This document shows positions 12,695 to 35,317 of a stretch of DNA of 35,703 bases, in pieces. The stretch comes from Candidatus Fibrimonadaceae bacterium (lineage in GTDB: Bacteria; Fibrobacterota; Fibrobacteria; Fibrobacterales; Fibrobacteraceae). The first letter of the stretch is position 1, and every line of letters begins with the position of its first letter. Where the stretch lies: the NCBI GenBank assembly GCA_031286305.1, contig JAITUM010000018.1:1-35703 (forward strand). The letters are read 5' to 3'. The position numbers and the translations under genes are program-made. Under the pieces are notes generated by a model. It was not told the origin of the DNA. It saw only the letters and a program-made list of their open reading frames with translations, and searched no databases.

Positions 12695-12881
12695 AGTTTC
12701 GTTGGCTGGGAAGCGATACGCTGAGTTACATTGGTTGGGACATGGGACAAGCGGCGTGCTAAACTACGTTGGTCGGGACATGACTATGCACAAGTTTATG
12801 GCTCATATCCCAGCCAACGTAGCTTTGCATGTCGCTTGTCCCAGCCAACGAAACTCAGCGTATCGCTTGTCCCATGTCCCA
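12695..12881. repeat. Inverted cluster of three plus three degenerate repeat units
   Basis: Units of about 30-38 bp with the core CGTTGGCTGGGACAAGCG occur three times in one orientation (12695-12790) and three times in the opposite orientation (12802-12881). The innermost pair (CTACGTTGG... at 12764 and ...CCAACGTAG ending 12822) can fold into a roughly 20-bp imperfect hairpin. AGTTTCGTTGGCTGGGA (12695-12711) has an exact reverse complement at 12839-12855. The last 29 bp are identical to 137-165. No coding potential is credible here. Confidence 0.75.
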
Positions 12882-12890
12882 AAACAACGT

Positions 12891-12925
12891 TGCTATACTC
12901 CCCATTCCCCATTCCCCATTCCCAG
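12891..12925. repeat. C-rich tandem tract (CCCCATT type)
   Basis: Tandem CCCCATT units (CTCCCCATTCCCCATTCCCC and onward) lie directly upstream of the pilM promoter. They resemble the CCCCATA/CCCTATA tracts upstream of cheB and sdhC. Confidence 0.8.
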
Positions 12926-12926
12926 A

Positions 12927-12952
12927 CATTGAGTATTTACTATATTAACTTC
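12927..12952 (+). promoter_or_regulatory. pilM promoter, predicted leaderless
   Basis: ACATTGAGTATTTACTATAT carries a -10 box TATATT at 12941-12946, the same TTTACTATATTA word as before cheB (sdhC has ATTACTATATTA). The GTG start of pilM is at 12953, only 6 nt past the -10 box, with no ribosome binding site. Transcription would begin at or next to the start codon. Confidence 0.6.
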
Positions 12953-14065
12953 GTGCGACTACACAATTTAATATCAAGGATACGTGGCGAGAGCAAGACG
13001 GTGGGTTTAGACATAGGTCACCGCTTGGCGAGAGTTGCTGTTGTTGAGCATAAACAAGGTATGAAAGGAACTTTGTTGGCTCTGGAACAAGAGACTATTC
13101 CAGAAGGAATTGTGGTAGACAATGAAATACGCAATGTTTCCGTTTTAATAGATAGAGTCCAAACCCTGCTCACTAGAGCCTCGCCCGGAGGCATAGATGG
13201 TGATTTTTTAATCTCGGTGAATTGGACTTCCGGGATTTTATGCGACAAAATGCTGGTAAAGCCTGTACCTAAGGTTCCCGAAAGAGAGCTTATACTGCAA
13301 ACTGCCCAAGGCAGACCACCCTTTGACGATGCCGGCAATATTTTAGACTACTCCATTTTGGAATACAAAGAAGAAGGCATAGAGGCAATGATAGTGGCAG
13401 CTAAAAAAGATAGCCTGACCGCTTGGATAAATTTATTCCAGGCACTGAACATAAAACTTTGCGCCATAGATGTAGATGCTTTTGTTTTGAGCAATATATA
13501 TTCCGCCTCAAGAGCAGATATTTCCGGATTATCATCGGGAGGAGAGGCGGAAATGGATGAATCGGTTTTGCTTCTGAATTTTGGGCACGGCAAATCTTAC
13601 GCTGCTCTTTTGCGGAATGGGCACTTTAGCACGGCCCGCTCAATATTGGGCGGTTCGGTTTCCGATTTGCAAGAGCAACTGTCCGGACCATTGGGAATAT
13701 TGCCCGAGCAGAGCGGGGAATTGCTTATGGGAACCGGAGCTAGAGACTCGGAACTGGATGATTCCAAAATAAAATTTGCAACAGAATTTGTTTTTGAAGA
13801 AGTAGCCATGAAAGTCGACACCGCACTTCGCTATTTCAGTTCAGCCGACAATTATAAAAAACCAACTAAAATGGTACTTACGGGTGGAGGCTCAAATATA
13901 ATTGGTTTGGAAGCATTCCTTGCAGACAGGTTATCCGTGCAATCTGTGCAATTAAATCCGTTTAAAAATGTAGAACTGGACAAAAGTCGCTTTCTTGGAG
14001 TTGATTGGAACACTGCTGCCAGCACATACTCTGTTGCTTTGGGTCTTGCCCTGAGGAGATTTTAA
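12953..14065 (+). CDS. pilM: Type IV pilus assembly ATPase-fold protein PilM
   Basis: The 370-residue protein has an actin/FtsA-like fold. The first phosphate loop is TVGLDIGHRLARVAVVEH (about 14-31), then VLLLNFGHGKSYAALLRNG as second phosphate motif, and MVLTGGGSNIIGLEAFLADR as adenosine motif near the C-terminus. PilM is cytoplasmic and binds the N-terminal INLLP motif of PilN, forming the inner-membrane alignment platform of the pilus. The frame is open far upstream through repeat DNA. GTG 12953 is chosen because it lies 6 nt after a TATATT box and gives the expected N-terminus (RLHNLISRIRGESKTVGLDI). The stop overlaps the pilN start (TAATG). Confidence 0.85.
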   Translation: MRLHNLISRIRGESKTVGLDIGHRLARVAVVEHKQGMKGTLLALEQETIPEGIVVDNEIRNVSVLIDRVQTLLTRASPGGIDGDFLISVNWTSGILCDKMLVKPVPKVPERELILQTAQGRPPFDDAGNILDYSILEYKEEGIEAMIVAAKKDSLTAWINLFQALNIKLCAIDVDAFVLSNIYSASRADISGLSSGGEAEMDESVLLLNFGHGKSYAALLRNGHFSTARSILGGSVSDLQEQLSGPLGILPEQSGELLMGTGARDSELDDSKIKFATEFVFEEVAMKVDTALRYFSSADNYKKPTKMVLTGGGSNIIGLEAFLADRLSVQSVQLNPFKNVELDKSRFLGVDWNTAASTYSVALGLALRRF

Positions 14066-19726: not shown

Positions 19727-20515
19727 TTAATTGATGACTCCAAAAGCGAACAGTACTAAAAGAATTATTCCCATGCCTGTGCGGTACCATGCAAATGGAA
19801 CAAAGTTTCTAGTTTGAACGAATTTCAAAAGCCACACCACAGTGAGCCATGCGGAAATTGTTGCAATAATGTATGCGACAATGGCTTCTAGCGAAAACAA
19901 ATCTGTTGCATTTCCATTTTTAATTTCTCTGAATAATTCATAACTTCCGGCAGCAAACATTGTTGGGATGCCAACCAAAAAAGAAAATTTGACTGCCTGC
20001 GGGCGAGCAAGCCCTACTATGAGAGCTGCCATAATGGCCATACCGGAGCGTGAGGCTCCGGGGAAAATTGCCGCAACCATTTGCCCAATAGCAACAGCTA
20101 CAACCACCGCCCATGTTAGGTCTGCTTTTAAATCTCTTTTTTTATTGTACTCCACTGCAAAAATAATAAGACCGCCTATTAGCAATGCAAGCGCAACCGG
20201 TAAAATAGTTTCCGGTAATTTTATTCCGCACATTTTTGCAATAAAACCGCCTATTCCTGTGAGAAAAAAAGCGGCAGATAATTTTAAAACATAGTCTTTG
20301 GTAGCGGGTTCTTTCCTGTTAATAAAAAAACCGGATATATCTTTCCAAAACACAAGCGCGCAAGCGGCTATTGGCCCAACTTGAACCAAAACATAAAATG
20401 CGTCATTGAAATCAGACTTTAAAAAACTGTTGGCAATCAACATGTGTCCGGTTGAAGAAATCGGTAAAAATTCCGTTAAACCCTGCACCAAACCAATAAT
20501 TATAGCATCAAGCAT
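19727..20515 (-). CDS. uppP: Undecaprenyl-diphosphatase
   Basis: The 262-residue polytopic membrane protein matches UppP (BacA). The first motif is GLVQGLTEFLPISSTGHM (about 8-25) and the second is IFPGASRSGMAIMAAL, which carries the catalytic Ser/Arg; about eight hydrophobic helices are visible. It removes a phosphate from C55-PP to recycle the lipid carrier for peptidoglycan and glycan export, and its loss raises bacitracin sensitivity. The length is normal. The ATG at 20515 has no ribosome binding site but lies 6 nt after a TATATT box on the minus strand, so a leaderless transcript is likely. Confidence 0.93.
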   Translation of the reverse strand: MLDAIIIGLVQGLTEFLPISSTGHMLIANSFLKSDFNDAFYVLVQVGPIAACALVFWKDISGFFINRKEPATKDYVLKLSAAFFLTGIGGFIAKMCGIKLPETILPVALALLIGGLIIFAVEYNKKRDLKADLTWAVVVAVAIGQMVAAIFPGASRSGMAIMAALIVGLARPQAVKFSFLVGIPTMFAAGSYELFREIKNGNATDLFSLEAIVAYIIATISAWLTVVWLLKFVQTRNFVPFAWYRTGMGIILLVLFAFGVIN

Positions 20516-20545
20516 TTATGGAATATAGAAAATACGATTAAAACT
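20516..20545 (-). promoter_or_regulatory. uppP promoter, predicted leaderless
   Basis: On the minus strand TTTTCTATATTCCATAAATG places the -10 box TATATT at 20527-20522 and the start codon at 20515, separated by CCATAA. No Shine-Dalgarno sequence fits in that gap. A weak -35 (TTTAGT-like) lies about 17 nt further upstream. Confidence 0.6.
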
Positions 20546-21926: not shown

Positions 21927-22084
21927 AGCTGGTTCTCCTATTTGGTTTATATTTAGTTAGACGGAAAAAACGGGAAAAATAATTTTAAAAATGCAAAAAA
22001 AATGCAAAGTGCAACTATCTGTTGTCATTTGCTGTGATTTTGAGCTAATTTCGTCGTTTTATTTGATAATTGTAAAAACAATGG

Positions 22085-22147
22085 TTTTTGCATTGCCTAT
22101 ACCCCACACCCCATACCCCATACCCCACACCCCATACCCTATACCCA
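22085..22147. repeat. C-rich intergenic repeat upstream of cheB
   Basis: The 20-mer TTTTTGCATTGCCTATACCC (22085-22104) is identical to 31394-31413 upstream of sdhC. It leads into tandem CCCCATA and CCCCACA units up to 22147. The whole stretch lies between the divergent Rpn gene and cheB and has no credible coding content. Confidence 0.85.
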
Positions 22148-22151
22148 AGCG

Positions 22152-22190
22152 AGTAAATCAGCATTTACTATATTACCCAAGGAAAGGAAA
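22152..22190 (+). promoter_or_regulatory. cheB promoter with 7-bp inverted repeat and RBS
   Basis: AGTAAAT (22152-22158) and ATTTACT (22163-22169) are a perfect inverted repeat with a CAGC loop, ending on the -10 box TATATT (22169-22174). GGAAAGGAAAT (from 22181) is the ribosome binding site for ATG 22198. The palindrome position fits an operator or a feature of the repeated promoter element, since sdhC has a similar arrangement. Confidence 0.6.
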
Positions 22191-22197
22191 TAAAATA

Positions 22198-23343
22198 ATG
22201 GCAGAACCTGCAAAAATTTTAATAGTTGATGACTCCCGAGTGTTTCGGAGCATACTGGAAAAAATAATTTCCACGATACCTGGTGTTCAGGTCGTTGGCG
22301 CTGTTGATAGCGGCTTGGCTGCTATTGAGTTCTTGCGAATGCGCGCGGTAGACCTTATGACCCTAGATGTCGAGATGCCTGAGCTTGATGGGCTGGAAAC
22401 GCTCAAAAAGATGCACGCTAGCAAAAGTCAGCTAAAGGCTGTTCCCGATGTGTTAATGATAAGCTCATTAACACGTACAGGCTCAGACACTACCATGAAG
22501 GCTCTTGAGTTCGGAGCTTTTGACTTTATAGCGAAGCCTGCAACTGAGATTCCAGGCTCTCAGGAAAGTCTGGGGCGAATGCTAAATACAGCAATAGGAG
22601 CGTGGGCTTCTCGCAGAAGCAGAGGGGTTCGGACTACAGCAGCAGCTTTGCCCACAAGCGCTCGCCCTGCTACCATGATCGGGTCGGGAAAGCCGCCTAC
22701 ACCTGCCCCTGCTCCTGCAGGCTTCACATATAACCTCCGACCTTCCACACACACAAAACCGGTTATGGCAATAGTTATGGGCATCTCCACCGGAGGCCCA
22801 AAATCTTTGGCAGAAATGCTTCCTAAACTTTGCTCAATGACAACTCTGCCAATCATGCTGGTGCAGCACATGCCACCTAACTTCACAAAGTCTTTGGCAG
22901 ATAGCCTTAGCTTAAAGTGCAGCCATACGGTTGTAGAAGGTTTGCATGGCACTGTAGTCAAAGATAAAACGGTTTATATTGCTCCGGGTGGCTCGCACAT
23001 GATAGTAAGACCCAGAGGCGCAGAATATGTTTTGGAAAACAATCAAGACCCACCTGAAAACGGTTGCCGTCCCAGCGTGGATGTTTTGTTTCGCTCCGCA
23101 GCGCTAGCCTACCCCCCTGACTCTCTTATTGGAGTTGTGCTAACAGGTATGGGCAATGATGGCGCTCCGTCTATGCACATTTTAAAAAATAAATCTGCTT
23201 ATCTAATAGCACAAGATGAAGAAACTTCGGTTGTATTCGGTATGCCTCGCGCAGCCGCAGCAACAGGTTTGCTAAATAAGGTTGCCCCCTTAATGCGCAT
23301 TCCGGAAGCAATAGTTGAACGTATAAACATGGGCAAAAGGTAG
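22198..23343 (+). CDS. cheB: Chemotaxis response regulator / protein-glutamate methylesterase CheB
   Basis: The 381-residue protein has a receiver domain (about 4-125; ILIVDDSR, phospho-acceptor Asp57 in LDVEMPELDG, Lys in FDFIAKPA), a Pro/Ala-rich linker and a methylesterase domain (about 185-381). The catalytic Ser197 lies in GISTGGP, His224 in QHMPP and Asp321 in GMGNDGA. It removes methyl groups from (and deamidates) MCPs when phosphorylated by CheA. ATG 22198 is chosen because GGAAAGGAAAT precedes it and the receiver domain starts right after. The open frame upstream runs through C-rich repeat DNA. It is followed after 9 bp by cheR, but cheA, cheW and cheY are not in the window. Confidence 0.93.
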   Translation: MAEPAKILIVDDSRVFRSILEKIISTIPGVQVVGAVDSGLAAIEFLRMRAVDLMTLDVEMPELDGLETLKKMHASKSQLKAVPDVLMISSLTRTGSDTTMKALEFGAFDFIAKPATEIPGSQESLGRMLNTAIGAWASRRSRGVRTTAAALPTSARPATMIGSGKPPTPAPAPAGFTYNLRPSTHTKPVMAIVMGISTGGPKSLAEMLPKLCSMTTLPIMLVQHMPPNFTKSLADSLSLKCSHTVVEGLHGTVVKDKTVYIAPGGSHMIVRPRGAEYVLENNQDPPENGCRPSVDVLFRSAALAYPPDSLIGVVLTGMGNDGAPSMHILKNKSAYLIAQDEETSVVFGMPRAAAATGLLNKVAPLMRIPEAIVERINMGKR

Positions 23344-26316: not shown

Positions 26317-27672
26317 ATGAAAAAAGCATTATTTGCTATTGTTGCGGCTAGCTCCTTGCTGTTCGCTGAGTCTTATCAGGTTAATACCCTTAGCGCAAAG
26401 CAGTTGGGTATGGCTCACACCGGAGCAGGCATAAAGCTTGGTTCGGAGAGTATGCATTTTAACCCTGGCGGTCTAGGCTTTGTGAATAAAAAGCTGGATA
26501 TTTCTGCCGGCGTAACCTTTATTATGCCAGAAGTGGAATTTCGTGGGGAGAAAGGCCTTGCTACCACTACTCAAATGGGAACGCCGCTCTATGTTTATGC
26601 AGCATCCAGCATAACAGACTGGCTATCTGCAGGTCTAAGCTTCACAAGTCCTTACGGCAACTCTGCCGACTACGGCAAAAACTGGGAAGGCGCAGGTCTT
26701 TTGCAAGACATTTCTTTGCAAGTTTTTGCCTTGCAACCTACTGTTGCTTTTAAATTCGGCGACATAAGCGTTGGTGCAGGTCCGGCTATCTATTTCGGAA
26801 GCTTTGAACAAAGCAAAGCATTGATTGCTCCTGGAGATTTGAATAAGCATCCGCAGCTTGGAGGTACGCCTTATGCAACTAAATACGCAGAAACCAGCGC
26901 TGTGTCTGCAACGTTTTCCGGTGATGCCGACGTAGCTGTGGCTGTCAATGTTGGTGCCATGTATGATGTAATCCCAGATAAGCTTACCCTTGGTGTTGCT
27001 TATCGTTCTGAAGCGCAGGCAAAAGTAGCAAAAGGCGAAACAAAAGTAAACTATGCAGATGAGGCAGATGCTGCTATATTTGCAGCCGGATTGCCCAAGT
27101 TTGAAGACGGTACTTTTTCAGCAGAGCTTCCGTTGCCGGCAAACTTAAATGCCGGTGTTTCTTTTCGCCCAATAGACAAGTTGCTTTTGGCTTTTGATTT
27201 TCAAATGATATTTTGGGGCACTTATAAAGAACTTGCTTTGGATTTTACTGATGATGTTACTATGCCTTTTGTCACTCCCGGAGGAATTATAGATGTTCCT
27301 CTTCCCAAGCCAATCTCAAAGAAAAACTACAAAGATGCTTTTGCTTATCGCTTTGGTGCGCAGTACACTGTTATAGACCAGTTGGATGTGCGTCTTGGTA
27401 TGTATTTTGATGAAACCCCTGTGAAAAGCGAATACCTAACACCGGAATCTCCCAGCACAAATAAACTGGGTTCCACTGTAGGTCTTTCTTTCCGCCCAAT
27501 TCCAGATTTATCCATTGATGCTGCGTTCCTTTACACAAATGGTGGCGGCACTTTTGGCAGAGATGCAAAATCCGGCGAAAAAGTGGATAGCAATGGCAGC
27601 AAAGACGGCCTTAATGGACGCTACGATGTTCAGGCATGGGTACCCTCAATTGGTTTGAGTTATAACTTCTAA
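26317..27672 (+). CDS. OmpP1/FadL/TodX-family outer-membrane transporter
   Basis: The 451-residue protein has a signal peptide (KKALFAIVAASSLLFAES). It then has the FadL-type hatch start (LSAKQLGMAHTGAGI, MHFNPGGLGFVNKKLDISAG) with the conserved NPG/NPA motif. Alternating beta strands follow to an aromatic C-terminus (WVPSIGLSYNF), as expected for a 14-strand barrel assembled by Bam. Family members take up long-chain fatty acids or other hydrophobic compounds; the substrate here is unknown. The ATG at 26317 replaces an in-frame upstream start because AAGGGAAC precedes it and the signal peptide begins there. The stop overlaps the next gene's ATG by one base (TAATG), tying it to a chemoreceptor. 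Confidence 0.88.
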   Translation: MKKALFAIVAASSLLFAESYQVNTLSAKQLGMAHTGAGIKLGSESMHFNPGGLGFVNKKLDISAGVTFIMPEVEFRGEKGLATTTQMGTPLYVYAASSITDWLSAGLSFTSPYGNSADYGKNWEGAGLLQDISLQVFALQPTVAFKFGDISVGAGPAIYFGSFEQSKALIAPGDLNKHPQLGGTPYATKYAETSAVSATFSGDADVAVAVNVGAMYDVIPDKLTLGVAYRSEAQAKVAKGETKVNYADEADAAIFAAGLPKFEDGTFSAELPLPANLNAGVSFRPIDKLLLAFDFQMIFWGTYKELALDFTDDVTMPFVTPGGIIDVPLPKPISKKNYKDAFAYRFGAQYTVIDQLDVRLGMYFDETPVKSEYLTPESPSTNKLGSTVGLSFRPIPDLSIDAAFLYTNGGGTFGRDAKSGEKVDSNGSKDGLNGRYDVQAWVPSIGLSYNF

Positions 27673-29510
27673 TGCAACTTAAACACAAATTACCATTAAT
27701 TTTATTTGTGGGTTATGTGCTTCTAACGGGAGCACTTGTTGCCTATGCATTGTACAGTTCGTATAAAACACGAAGGGTATCTCAATTCGAGGCGGCAAAA
27801 GCCCAAGCTCGGAATTATTCCGAGGAAATAGCAACTTTTATATCAGAAAAAGCAGGCGAACTCAAAAGCTTGAAAAACAGTATGGAAGTTGGAAACAATG
27901 TTAATGTGAATTTTGTGAATGCTGCACGTGCAGACAAACCGTATTTAACGGAGCCGCATGAACTTAATGGAAAAAAAATAATAACCATTAACTACCCATT
28001 TATTATAGATGGAAAATTTGCAGGCATGGCAGGCTTGAATTTGGAACAGGAAACAATTCAAAAAGAACTGCTCAATGGAATGCGAAATGATTCAATGCAT
28101 GCTTATGTGGTTTTTGTGCCGAATAGTAGCTTGCCTGCCGATTTACAAACTGCCATGAACAATGGCGAAGAACGCGTAATTATTCAAAAGAGCAATGTGA
28201 CCGGAGATCTTTCCGTTATGGCTTATGTTCCCTTGCCGGCCAAAGGATTTGATGCACCATGGGCTGTGGGGTACATAGTGTCTGATGATATTTTGCGGAG
28301 CGAAGAATTGGGAGTGAGGTACAGAACTTTAAGCCAGCTTTTATTTATTGATATTTTATGGGGTTTATTTTTGTTATGGTTAATGTCTAGGGTTTTTAGA
28401 CCTTTGACTAACGCGGTAAAATTACTTGGCAAAATGACTGAGGGTGAAGGCGATTTGACCATTCGCTTGGAAGATCGCGGCAAAGATGAGATTGGGCAAA
28501 TGTCAAAGAGTTTGAACAGGTTTATAGAAAAGCTTCACTCAACAATAAAAAGAACCCAAAAAGATTCTAAGAGCCTTCTTGGCACTTCTTCCGCTTTATA
28601 TACTTTGTCTGGCAATTTATCTCATTCCTCGGAAACCTCGCTTGTGCAATCTGAGAGTGCATCTAAGGCTACAGGAACGGCCAGTGAGAATGCAAAGACC
28701 ATAGCCGGTGATGCGCGGCGAACGAGCGCAAATGCAAACGAGCTTGCAAGCACGGCAGAGCAAATGAGCATGAACATGAATTCCGTGGCAAGCGCCGTGG
28801 AAGAACTCAGCGCAAGCTTTGCCGAAATAACCGGAAACACCGATGAATCTCATGCCATAGCAAGCGATGCTACCAAAAAATCCAGCGAAGCCACTAAGGT
28901 TATGAACGAGCTTGGCACTGCCGCTAAGGAGATAGGTCATGTTACAGAGATTATAAAACGGATAGCAGATAAAACAAATTTACTCGCGTTAAATGCCACC
29001 ATTGAGGCAGCGAGCGCAGGTGCTGCAGGCAAAGGTTTTGCTGTTGTTGCCGGCGAAATCAAGGAACTTGCCAACCAGAGTGCGCAAAGTGCAGACGACA
29101 TTGCTCGCCGCATAGATGGTATTCAAGTTGGCACAAACAATGCTGTTGAAGTTATAAGCAGCGTATCTGAAATAATAAACAAAATAAACTCTTCCGTAGA
29201 CGAGATTGCCGGCAGTGTTAGGCAGCAGACCGAGGCCAGCAACGAGATAGCCAATAATGCCGGGCAGGCCAATGCCGGTGCACGCCAGTTGGCTGGTTCC
29301 ATAAGCGAAATTGTTCAAGCAGCGCGGGCTTCTGCACAGAACGCCGAGAGCGTTGCTCAGGGCACAAGAAGCGTTTCGGAGAGCGTTGGCGTTATGTATG
29401 AGGGTGCTAAAAAATCCAATTTAAATTCCGCAGAATTGAATAAAACCGCAGATAAGTTGAAACACATGGCAGAACACTTAGACTCCATTGTGAGCAAATT
29501 CAAAACTTAA
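27672..29510 (+). CDS. Methyl-accepting chemotaxis protein, Cache type
   Basis: The 612-residue chemoreceptor has TM1 (about 8-28), a periplasmic Cache-like sensor (about 30-218; PYLTEPHELNGKKIITINYP then DGKFAGMAGLNLEQE), TM2 (about 221-241), HAMP (about 242-295; [14 protein letters not shown]) and a long coiled-coil signalling domain. The hairpin tip is [34 protein letters not shown]-like (about 432-466). It would control CheA through CheW. It lacks a C-terminal NWETF-type pentapeptide for CheR/CheB tethering. The start overlaps the stop of the FadL-type gene, so a ligand imported or bound at that porin is a possible stimulus, though this is only positional inference. Confidence 0.92.
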   Translation: MQLKHKLPLILFVGYVLLTGALVAYALYSSYKTRRVSQFEAAKAQARNYSEEIATFISEKAGELKSLKNSMEVGNNVNVNFVNAARADKPYLTEPHELNGKKIITINYPFIIDGKFAGMAGLNLEQETIQKELLNGMRNDSMHAYVVFVPNSSLPADLQTAMNNGEERVIIQKSNVTGDLSVMAYVPLPAKGFDAPWAVGYIVSDDILRSEELGVRYRTLSQLLFIDILWGLFLLWLMSRVFRPLTNAVKLLGKMTEGEGDLTIRLEDRGKDEIGQMSKSLNRFIEKLHSTIKRTQKDSKSLLGTSSALYTLSGNLSHSSETSLVQSESASKATGTASENAKTIAGDARRTSANANELASTAEQMSMNMNSVASAVEELSASFAEITGNTDESHAIASDATKKSSEATKVMNELGTAAKEIGHVTEIIKRIADKTNLLALNATIEAASAGAAGKGFAVVAGEIKELANQSAQSADDIARRIDGIQVGTNNAVEVISSVSEIINKINSSVDEIAGSVRQQTEASNEIANNAGQANAGARQLAGSISEIVQAARASAQNAESVAQGTRSVSESVGVMYEGAKKSNLNSAELNKTADKLKHMAEHLDSIVSKFKT

Positions 29511-29522
29511 AGGAGATTAAAT

Positions 29523-31361
29523 ATGCAACTCAAATACAAAATACCCATAATTATGTTTCTGATGTTCTTGTTGCTGGTTGGCTCCTTTGTTGCTTCTGTT
29601 TTGGTTAATTCCTCTGCTGTGCGCAAAGAATCTCAGTTTGAAACGGCAAAAGCCAGCGCTCAAGATTACACCAACAGAGCAAAGGCTTATATATCGGAAA
29701 GATTAACTGAACTCAAGGGTTTGGAAAACAATATATCTATGATGAGCAACTTAGACGAGGAAACCAAAGCAGACAGAACAAAAAAATTATTGCAAAAATT
29801 ATCCAACTCTCCGATTGTTTCCGATGTTTATATAAGACCAAATGCTTCTGCCGGCAGCAAACCGCATTTAACGGAACCTTATGAGCGCGGCGCAAAAAAA
29901 ATGATAAGCCTCACTTACGGCATAACAGGAATGGACTTGGATTTTGATGCTTTGCAAAAAGAGTTGTTCGGTGTTGGTAAAGTTGGTGATTATGCTTTTT
30001 TTGTTCCAAATAGCGGCGAATTCTACCAAGAGCTTAAGAATGATCCGAAAACAGGAGAAACTTTCCTTATGTCTTATATTCCTGCACTGTCTGAGGAATT
30101 TGTTCAGCCTTGGTCAGTTGGTTATGCTATACCGCATCTCGTTTTGCGAGAGGAGGAATTAAAGATAAGAAAAATGGTGCTTGGGGTTCTTGTGACTGCA
30201 TTATCTTCTTGGGCACTCTTTTTATTTTGGTTAATGGGCAGTGTTTTCAAACATTTAACCAATATGATTAAGCTGCTTGGCAAAATGACTGAAGGCGAAG
30301 GTGACTTGACCATTCGCTTGGAAGAAGGTGGCAAAGATGAGATTGGGCAAATATCAAGGGGGTTGAACGGGCTTGTGGAAAAGCTTCATTCAACAATAAA
30401 AAGAACCCAAAAAGATGCCAAGAGCCTTCTTGAGACTTCTTCCGTTCTATATACTCTGTCCAATAATTTATCTCATTCCTCGGAAACCTCGCTTGCACAG
30501 TCTGAAAATGCGTCTAAAGCTACGGAAGCGGCCAGTGAAAATGCAAGAGCCATAGCCGGTGATGCGCGGCGAACGAGCGCAAATGCAAACGAACTCGCAA
30601 GCACGGCAGAGCAAATGAGCATGAATATGAATTCCGTGGCCAGCGCCGTGGAAGAACTCAGTGCAAGTTTTGCCGAGATAACCGGAAACACCGATGAGTC
30701 TCACGACATAGCAAACGATGCTACCAAAAAATCCAGCGAAGCCACTAAGGTTATGAATGAGCTTGGCACTGCCGCTAAGGAGATAGGCCATGTTACGGAG
30801 GTCATAAAACGGATAGCGGATAAAACGAATTTGCTTGCGCTCAATGCCACCATCGAGGCAGCGAGTGCAGGTGCTGCAGGCAAAGGTTTTGCCGTTGTTG
30901 CCGGCGAAATTAAGGAGCTTGCCAACCAGAGTGCGCAAAGCGCCGACGATATAGCCCACCGCATAGAGAGCATTCAGAGCGGCACAAGCAATGCAGTGAC
31001 GGTTATAAACAATGTGTCTGAGATAATAAGCAAAATAAACTCTTCCATATCTGAGATTGCCGGTAGCGTTAGGCAGCAGACCGAGGCCAGCAACGAGATA
31101 GCCAATAATGCCGGGCAGGCCAATGCCGGCGCGCGCCAGTTGGTTGGTTCCATAAGCGAAATTGTTCAAGCGGCACGAGCCTCTGCACAAAACGCCGAAA
31201 GCGTTGCTCAGGGCACAAAAAGTGTTTCGGAGAGCGTTGGCGTTATGTATGAGGGTGCTAAAAAATCCAACTCCGATTCCGCAGAATTAAACGAAACCGC
31301 AGACAAGCTAAAACACATGGCAGAACACTTAGATTCAATTGTAAGCAAATTCAAGACCTAA
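29523..31361 (+). CDS. Methyl-accepting chemotaxis protein, tandem paralogue
   Basis: The 612-residue protein is a duplicate of the preceding MCP. Signalling domains from about residue 245 onward are nearly identical; one 62-bp stretch (31068-31129) equals 29217-29278 exactly. Sensor regions share only framework words (SQFE-AKA, HLTEPYE vs YLTEPHE). In this copy the Cache strand pair after LTEPYE is shortened ([17 protein letters not shown]), losing the PFIIDGKFAG segment of its neighbour, while an insert ([17 protein letters not shown]) lengthens the first helix region. AAGGAG lies 7 nt before the ATG. The pair probably senses different ligands with the same output. Confidence 0.92.
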
Positions 31362-31364
31362 GGG

Positions 31365-31388
31365 ACGTTGGATTACTCAATGTTTACC
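31365..31388. repeat. 24-bp intergenic repeat after MCP gene
   Basis: The sequence ACGTTGGATTACTCAATGTT and its next four bases lie immediately after the MCP stop codon. They recur with a one-base shift at 35236-35259 immediately after the sdhB stop. Part of it (TACTCAATGT) is present in reverse complement in the pilM promoter (12927-12936). Confidence 0.7.
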
Positions 31389-31393
31389 AATGT

Positions 31394-31437
31394 TTTTTGC
31401 ATTGCCTATACCCTATACCCCATACCCTATACCCTCC
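31394..31437. repeat. C-rich intergenic repeat upstream of sdhC
   Basis: It begins with the same 20-mer (TTTTTGCATTGCCTATACCC) as 22085-22104 and continues with CCCTATA and CCCCATA units to 31437. It belongs to the same repeat family as the tract before cheB and sits in the same position relative to a promoter. Confidence 0.85.
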
Positions 31438-31446
31438 TAAGGTGAA

Positions 31447-31500
31447 TCGCCAAAGGCGAGTAATCATTAATTACTATATTACCACTAACATTTTTAGGAG
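31447..31500 (+). promoter_or_regulatory. sdhC promoter with inverted repeats and RBS
   Basis: TCGCC-AAA-GGCGA (31447-31459) is a small perfect palindrome. AGTAAT (31459-31464) and ATTACT (31470-31475) form a second one ending on the -10 box TATATT (31475-31480). TTTTTAGGAG (31491-31500) is the ribosome binding site 9 nt before ATG 31510. The layout mirrors that upstream of cheB. Confidence 0.6.
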
Positions 31501-31509
31501 ATTTTGCAA

Positions 31510-32541
31510 ATGAAATGGCTTTTGACCTATATTACTTCTTCCATAGGCAAGAAGCAGGTTATGGGCGCTGCCGGGCTTTTGTTGGTTCTTTTTGTGCTGG
31601 GGCACATGGTTGGCAACTTGCAGCTGGTGCTCCCGTTTCCTCCAGACCCTTTAGAAGCCCAAGCTGCGTATAACGCGTATTCCAACCTTTTGACTAAGTT
31701 CAAACCAGCCCTGTACTATGCCACCATAGCAGGCTTGGCGGTGATTTTCATGGTCCATATGTATTTTGCAGTTGCACTCAAACTGCAGAATCTTAAGGCA
31801 CGTGGCACCGCTCGCTATGCTGTTGAGGCTCGAAAAGGCAAAAAACAATTCCCAACCTTCACAATGATTTGGTCGGGGCTTGCAATAGCAGCCTTTATTA
31901 TATGGCACATCCTCACCGTTCGCAACGGAGCATACTATTATTATATAAACCCTGAGGTAGCAGATGGCGCAGTTGTCCGCGATATGTGGCTAACCACCGT
32001 TGAAGTTTTGGGGAACCCGATATCTACCGTGTTCTACATGATTGTTGTAGTTGTGCTGGGCTTCCATACGTGGCATGCCATTTCGAGCGCGTTCCAAACA
32101 ATGGGCATAAACCACCAGAAATGGACCCCTATCATAGACATGATGGGCATTGCTTATTGCGTTGTGGTTGCTGTGGGTTACGGAGCAACAGCAGCAGGCT
32201 CTTATGCGGTTGTGAACTTTGATGAAAAAACAATAGCGGTGATTGAGCAGGTTAAAAATCCTTCTTATCAAAAAGCCTTGGAGGCTTTGTCTAAAAGACC
32301 TCTTGAAGAACAAAAGATGGCAGCCAAGCTCATTGCGAAAAATCCCGAGAGAGCAAAGTTCATTGTTGAAAGGGAAGGCTTGCACCGCCCATCCTTTGAA
32401 AAAGGAAATTTTCATGATAAAAGAAAGAAATTCCATAAAAAAGGTGGGCATCAAAGACCTGTGAAGCAGCAAGAGCCGGCAAGGAATCTTGAAGAAAATG
32501 CAGAACAGTTGGAAATAGAAACAGAAGGAGGTGAGGAATGA
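31510..32541 (+). CDS. sdhC: Succinate dehydrogenase/fumarate reductase cytochrome b subunit with C-terminal extension
   Basis: The 343-residue membrane protein matches the b558 family of Bacteroidetes and Fibrobacter. It has five membrane helices within about 1-235 ([97 protein letters not shown]). His residues in GHMVGN, MVHMY, IWHIL and FHTWH are suited to binding two hemes. It anchors SdhA and SdhB and exchanges electrons with quinone. The family is usually about 220-230 residues; here about 100 extra residues, highly charged and Lys/Glu-rich ([16 protein letters not shown]), follow. ATG 31510 is chosen over TTG 31504 by RBS spacing. It overlaps sdhA by 4 bp. Confidence 0.88.
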
Positions 32542-35235: not shown

Positions 35236-35317
35236 ACGTTGATTAACTCAATGTTTACCCGCGCTTCGCATGGTTCACCAGCGAAATGCAAAGCAGGAAG
35301 GGTATGGGGTATGGGGG
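35236..35317. repeat. Intergenic repeat block after sdhB, C-rich tract inverted
   Basis: 35236-35259 is the 24-bp repeat also found after the second MCP gene. Farther on, GGGTATGGGGTATGGGGG (35300-35317) is the CCCCATA tract in the opposite orientation to those before cheB and sdhC, here pointing away from the minus-strand gene at the right edge. No TATATT box is seen with this copy. Confidence 0.7.

Follow-up and report, generated by a model that had tools for sequence, protein, structure and literature searches.

A MITE family of one Fibrobacterota genus with a putative preference for host -10 promoter boxes

This locus raises the question of why operons of unrelated function should share one module upstream of their genes. 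The window, meaning the whole 35,703-nucleotide stretch analysed here, contains identical copies of a 20-mer (TTTTTGCATTGCCTATACCC) at 22085-22104 and 31394-31413, upstream of a cheB-like gene and of sdhC, respectively. In each case the 20-mer is followed by a heptamer tract, a palindromic end module, and then TTTACTATATTA at cheB or ATTACTATATTA at sdhC, which confirms the order of 20-mer, C-rich tract, palindrome, and TATATT reported for both genes in a preliminary description. A third site, before pilM, had been described as a partial version, and it has a heptamer tract (12899-12923), the end module, and ATTTACTATATTA without the 20-mer. Chance was excluded because the C-rich pattern matched nine times in the window and never in 100 shuffles, and because the 20-mer occurred 69 times genome-wide with up to three mismatches as compared to once for its reversed control.

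Anatomy of the repeats

The genome (G000) is a 3.19 Mb assembly of 277 contigs, and our detailed examination covered 1.28 Mb of contigs (40% of the genome) plus short loci. Among named sequences, its SdhA is closest to that of a Candidatus Fibrimonadaceae MAG (91%), with Fibrobacter at about 80%, which places the organism in the Fibrobacterota. Across the whole genome, the 20-mer had 39 exact matches and about 59 with two or fewer mismatches, in keeping with the earlier view of a dispersed element. The element directly adjoins promoter-like boxes of unrelated operons. The 20-mer is the middle of an element of approximately 161 bp, in which a core and inner heptamer arrays are enclosed by terminal inverted repeats. 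Full copies are symmetrical: both sides have an outward-facing end, and the copies read TATA-GTAAACGCTGATTTACTCGC-(G-rich heptamers)-AACTGCACAAATAAACGGCTAAATCTGCTTAAAAACAATGTTTTTTGCATTGCC-(C-rich heptamers)-end-TATA, wherein the inverted ends are GTAAA(C/T)GCTGATT and AATCAGC(G/A)TTTAC. Measured from TATA to TATA, 10 copies spanned 156-216 bp, including four of exactly 161 bp, and a long single hairpin was predicted for three G000 copies (z about -10 to -12). Most G000 copies have TATA flanks on both sides, which are not separable from the element's own TATA. The element is thus short (~161 bp), non-coding, bounded by terminal inverted repeats, and present in many copies (up to 92 terminus matches per genome), as are MITEs.

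Set against this symmetrical element, the copies at cheB and sdhC are half or internally deleted, a correction to the earlier description. All features of the cheB, sdhC, and pilM copies lie on the plus strand. The cheB copy keeps the right half of the element, beginning with the right half of the core (AAAAACAATGGTTTTTGCATTGCCT, 22074-22098), whereas the left half and left end are missing. It continues with 6.9 units of an ATACCCC heptamer array (22099-22146) and the terminal module AAGCGAGTAAATCAGCATTTAC, which contains the palindrome AGTAAA-N6-TTTACT and forms the right end (22147-22168). The adjoining TATATT (22169-22174) is read as a putative host -10 box completed by the element's TTTAC, and the first downstream gene (22198-23343) is the one named cheB-like in the preliminary description. 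The sdhC copy has an internal deletion and comprises a left-end remnant (GATTACTCAATGTTTA, 31371-31386), the core with the shared 20-mer (31387-31406), 4.4 units of a CCTATAC array (31405-31435), an additional nested REP-like palindrome (AGGTGAATCGCCAAAGGCGAGTAATC, 31440-31465) that other copies also have, and the terminal module GAGTAATCATTAATTAC at the right end (31458-31474). The sdhC -10 box, TATATT, follows at 31475-31480, and the gene itself (31510-32541) has a start conserved in relatives. Just before this element end two apparently tandem-duplicated genes, encoding 612-aa ORFs at 27672-29510 and 29523-31361 with 3' parts (29299-29514 and 31150-31365) that are 89% identical.

The pilM copy is reduced to one end, with a TCCCCAT array in the tract noted above, a partial terminal module (AGACATTGAGTATTTAC, 12924-12940), and a TATATT that is a candidate -10 box (12941-12946). 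A GTG at 12953, exactly 6 nt after this box and in frame with the called start at 13001, is a predicted leaderless start. Upstream lies a 31-bp tandem repeat (TCCCAGCCAACG...CGCTTG, 2.2 units, 12808-12874) that resembles the interior of elements in a related genome, G004, and the pilM copy may therefore be of a different subtype. The window also contains a decayed half copy on the minus strand between convergent genes (35236-35317), consisting of a degenerate end (CATTGAGTTAATCAACG), a palindrome, and two heptamers. This copy faces no gene and lacks TATATT.

Host promoter motif and point of insertion

In a 660-kb sample, k-mer enrichment upstream of genes was highest for TTACTATAT, TACTATATT, and TTCTATATT, and, judged from sequence, the general promoter motif of the host, genome-wide, is TTT[T/A]CTATATT. 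A conserved -35 signal is almost absent from the native promoters. The distance between box and start codon peaks at exactly 6 nt, a spacing found at 44 of 237 motif-bearing genes (box TTTNCTATATT). This peak corresponds to the geometry of leaderless transcripts, and predicted leaderless transcripts therefore appear common in the genus. In the window, such sites occur before pilM (12941-12955) and before the minus-strand gene 19727-20515 (20515-20533). At smc, a box of the type TTTCTA(C/T)ATT precedes the GTG by about 6 nt in nearly all sister genomes, and element-free sister genomes carry TTTACTATATT at the place of the sdhC box. TATATT had earlier been taken as part of what the element carries, a view not supported in that form given its occurrence as a genome-wide promoter motif, natively at sdhC without the element, and, as a -10-like box, in the empty sites described below.

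The orientation of element ends relative to genes was strongly patterned. An ORF started within 70 nt of 25 of 26 TATATT ends, in many cases at 6-10 nt, versus 11 of 24 other TATA ends (p = 8e-5), several of the latter 11 having their own promoter box further downstream. This ORF-start test was picked after gene-call failures showed in an initial test, which compared end type with gene direction by crude gene calls and was weak (p = 0.02). The result suggests that the TATATT end of a copy points to the gene whose promoter was invaded. It had been proposed to check whether copies always sit upstream of genes and end in TATATT: TATATT ends do face genes, but 24 of the 50 recognised TATA-type ends are not TATATT, and the presence of a copy therefore does not guarantee a promoter on any particular side. 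The TATATT box is mostly the host's own, and the promoters seem for the most part to predate the insertions.

In most G000 copies that end in TATATT on one side, the opposite end reads TATAG[A/T]AA. When flanks were joined across TATA, the result was T[T/A]C-TATA-TT in eight of nine testable copies, a small sample in which some joins may be misread. Promoter boxes make up 22% of intergenic TATA sites and 40% of intergenic C-TATA sites, and the joined flanks exceed what random insertion at either would give (p = 4e-5 and p = 0.004, respectively). Such high background shares favor an account without promoter targeting, wherein any TATA is hit and only harmless insertions survive, leaving promoter sites enriched by selection. 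The sole TIR-bounded insertion sequence (IS) seen, in G004, also sits at a non-promoter TATA. However, eight of nine exceeds even the C-TATA expectation, with the same caution about sample size and misread joins, and we regard this account as a real possibility that falls short of being probable. The apparent target preference may reflect either a preference of the transposase or the survival of harmless insertions.

Filled and empty sites were compared between the sister species G006 and G009, where three pairs gave the evidence of mobility expected of a MITE. The filled locus L274 and its empty counterpart L322 are 86% identical across the joined site, where the host sequence is GCATTTAC-TATATTC (the hyphen marking the junction). 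Locus L281 is filled and L331 empty (74% identical, host AAATTTC-TATTTTATT), and L227 is filled and L225 empty (host AAAATTC-TATATTAAACCTCATG). In all three pairs a -10-like box is split by the element just after its C and before its TAT, with ATTTAC of the element replacing the host's upstream half. The boxes before insertion were not letter-identical, given an 8-bp indel at the junction of the L274 pair and TATTTT rather than TATATT in the empty species of the L281 pair. The target duplication is putatively the 4-bp TATA, which most G000 copies fit, whereas the smc pair fits TA better, and two filled/empty pairs have extra TA units at one end. Some GTAA flanks could derive from the element and not from the host.

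These pairs bear on a rival modelled on Correia elements, in which the element would carry most of the promoter (TTTACTATA) and make new promoters where its end meets TT. Element ends do contain TTTACTATA, the element-type TTAC is found in 31 of 41 element-linked promoters versus 44 of 196 others, and, according to the cited account, Correia elements form fusion promoters where they meet TATA-like targets (PMC9330008). Yet the empty sites already have a -10-like box, native boxes exist at sdhC and smc in sister genomes, and the joined flanks restore the box in nearly every testable copy. We therefore view a Correia-type origin of these promoters as improbable.

Distribution in the genus and transposase partner

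With one mismatch allowed, the terminus TATAGTAAAYGCTGATT was found in all 12 genomes of the genus, at 3 to 92 places each, and none of 48 more distant genomes had it at more than two places. By this measure, the element family appears essentially confined to one Fibrobacterota genus. Few insertion sites are common to G006 and G009, and sites mostly differ between these sister species. Interiors usually contain a 7-nt repeat of species-specific sequence (TACCCCA in G000; GGCTAGT, GAGAGTT, GGGAGTA, and TATCCCT elsewhere), although the interior of G006 copies is different and lacks heptamers. Many contigs of G007, such as L347 (C35), break about 72-93 bp inside a near-identical element copy, which implies that copy number is probably undercounted there and that these copies are recent. 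Upstream of carA in G008 (L218) is a minimal version in which two facing ends enclose almost no interior (TATAGTAAATGCTGAATTAGTCGCTTCAGCATTTACTATA), flanked by two outward TATATT boxes.

The heptamer arrays are an obvious feature of the repeats, and G-rich heptamer repeats also occur between genes in Xanthomonas and Nostoc (PMC4692102). It could be asked whether heptanucleotide expansion upstream of genes, of the STRR or G-quadruplex type, would account for the copies without transposition. Expansion does not account for the IS partner, the empty sites, or the TATA flanks, nor for the fixed ends, the core, and a length that is nearly constant; the heptamer is the part of the element least conserved between species; and the filled/empty pairs speak against expansion as the whole story. 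We give this reading almost no credence. A G-quadruplex or i-motif is likewise unlikely as a conserved property because GGCTAGT and GAGAGTT, which are non-quadruplex heptamers, occupy the same place in other species.

In G004, the same termini surround a 1,238-bp IS encoding a 333-aa IS5-family transposase (NF033581, 240.7 bits versus a cut-off of 140, E = 2e-71; Pfam DDE_Tnp_1 and DUF772). The copies therefore look like MITEs of this IS, sharing their termini with an autonomous element. This partner also weighs on the earlier proposal of a common regulatory cassette. In the form considered here, AGTAAA-N6-TTTACT over the -10 box would be the operator of a global regulator and the copies its regulon. 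The palindrome does overlap the box at many genes, but it also forms the terminus of an IS that encodes a transposase, the occupied sites mostly differ between sister species, and the targets (smc, carA, sdhC, pilM, and cheB) are unrelated. A regulatory cassette is unnecessary for explaining the copies and, in our judgment, very unlikely.

Examination of 1.28 Mb (40%) of G000 revealed no IS5-type transposase gene, and mobilisation here is extrapolated from the relative, as is any present mobility of the element in this genome. Two other routes of mobilisation were considered and rejected. Y1 matches, as expected for IS200/IS605 or REP/RAYT, were seen in just six of the 12 genomes and without paired termini around them, and the DDE_3 transposase (PF13358) of IS630/mariner was detected in none of the 12.

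Taken together, we consider it likely that the repeats belong to a genus-specific MITE family, mobilised in trans by an IS5-type transposase, that inserts preferentially in the host's extended -10 and re-forms the box. The window's repeats would be copies of this MITE, often truncated or rearranged. Insertion would occur at TATA, preferentially within the extended -10 promoter TTT[T/A]C-TATATT, between the C and the TATATT. There the element's terminal TTTAC would take the place of the host's TTTNC, such that TTTACTATATT is re-formed on the gene side, and the old upstream half would be left on the opposite side as TATAG[A/T]AA. The gene should keep its core promoter, because native promoters show almost no -35 signal, while all sequence upstream is replaced. 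Promoter activity at the element ends is predicted from sequence.

Relation to known elements and significance

The family has partial counterparts among known elements. Correia elements (CREE/NEMIS) of Neisseria are described in the cited accounts as 104-157 bp long with TATAG termini and many copies 5' of genes, and as having TA or TATA-like target duplications that resemble a -10 hexamer, with promoters formed at their ends (PMC2649163, PMC9330008). The family described here is alike in size class, TATAG ends, TATA-like targets, and predicted promoter formation. It is unlike them in its termini (TATAGTAAAYGCTGATT rather than the TATAG[CT]GGATTAA... that defines CREE), in its IS5-type transposase partner, in native -10 boxes that the empty sites suggest are invaded and re-completed, and in its heptamer arms, a feature absent from the CREE descriptions consulted. 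The BrickBuilt MITE of Porphyromonas gingivalis, as presented in the source cited, shares IS5-family-like ends, an internal tandem repeat, intergenic location, and outward promoters at both ends (PMC4596501). Its repeat unit is 23 nt rather than 7 nt, its TSDs are variable, its terminal sequence differs, and that source's description, as far as consulted, includes no targeting of promoter boxes (PMC4596501). Among IS5-family insertion sequences, to which the partner IS belongs by its transposase, E. coli IS5 is reported to form a fusion promoter at fucAO (PMC11894529). Here, unlike in that family, the partner IS and MITEs occur essentially in one Fibrobacterota genus, and the IS copies seen are far fewer than the MITEs. 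The Xanthomonas and Nostoc repeats are similarly intergenic, G-rich, and 7 nt in unit length, but they are not described within transposon ends, whereas here the repeat varies by species and the ends are constant (PMC4692102).

A literature search for MITEs that target native -10 boxes yielded only the preference of Correia elements for TATA. What appears new is the invasion and re-completion of native -10 boxes, as suggested by the empty sites, together with species-specific heptamer arms within constant ends and a one-genus distribution.

Many transposons avoid harm by missing genes. This element appears to avoid harm by landing within promoters and rebuilding the part that it breaks. A stronger version, which we find rather doubtful, is that the lineage homes to promoters, with a transposase that recognises the extended -10 (or promoter DNA that RNA polymerase has bound or opened) and ends that evolved to be interchangeable with the box. 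If so, housekeeping and other promoters would have been colonised without silencing, and upstream regulation rewired across the genus. If the likelier reading of preferential insertion with re-formation of the box is true, it would explain the shared upstream module of unrelated operons and offer a concrete route by which upstream regulatory DNA is repeatedly swapped at many genes. It would also constitute a natural set of promoter replacements in a mostly uncultured group wherein predicted leaderless genes are common.
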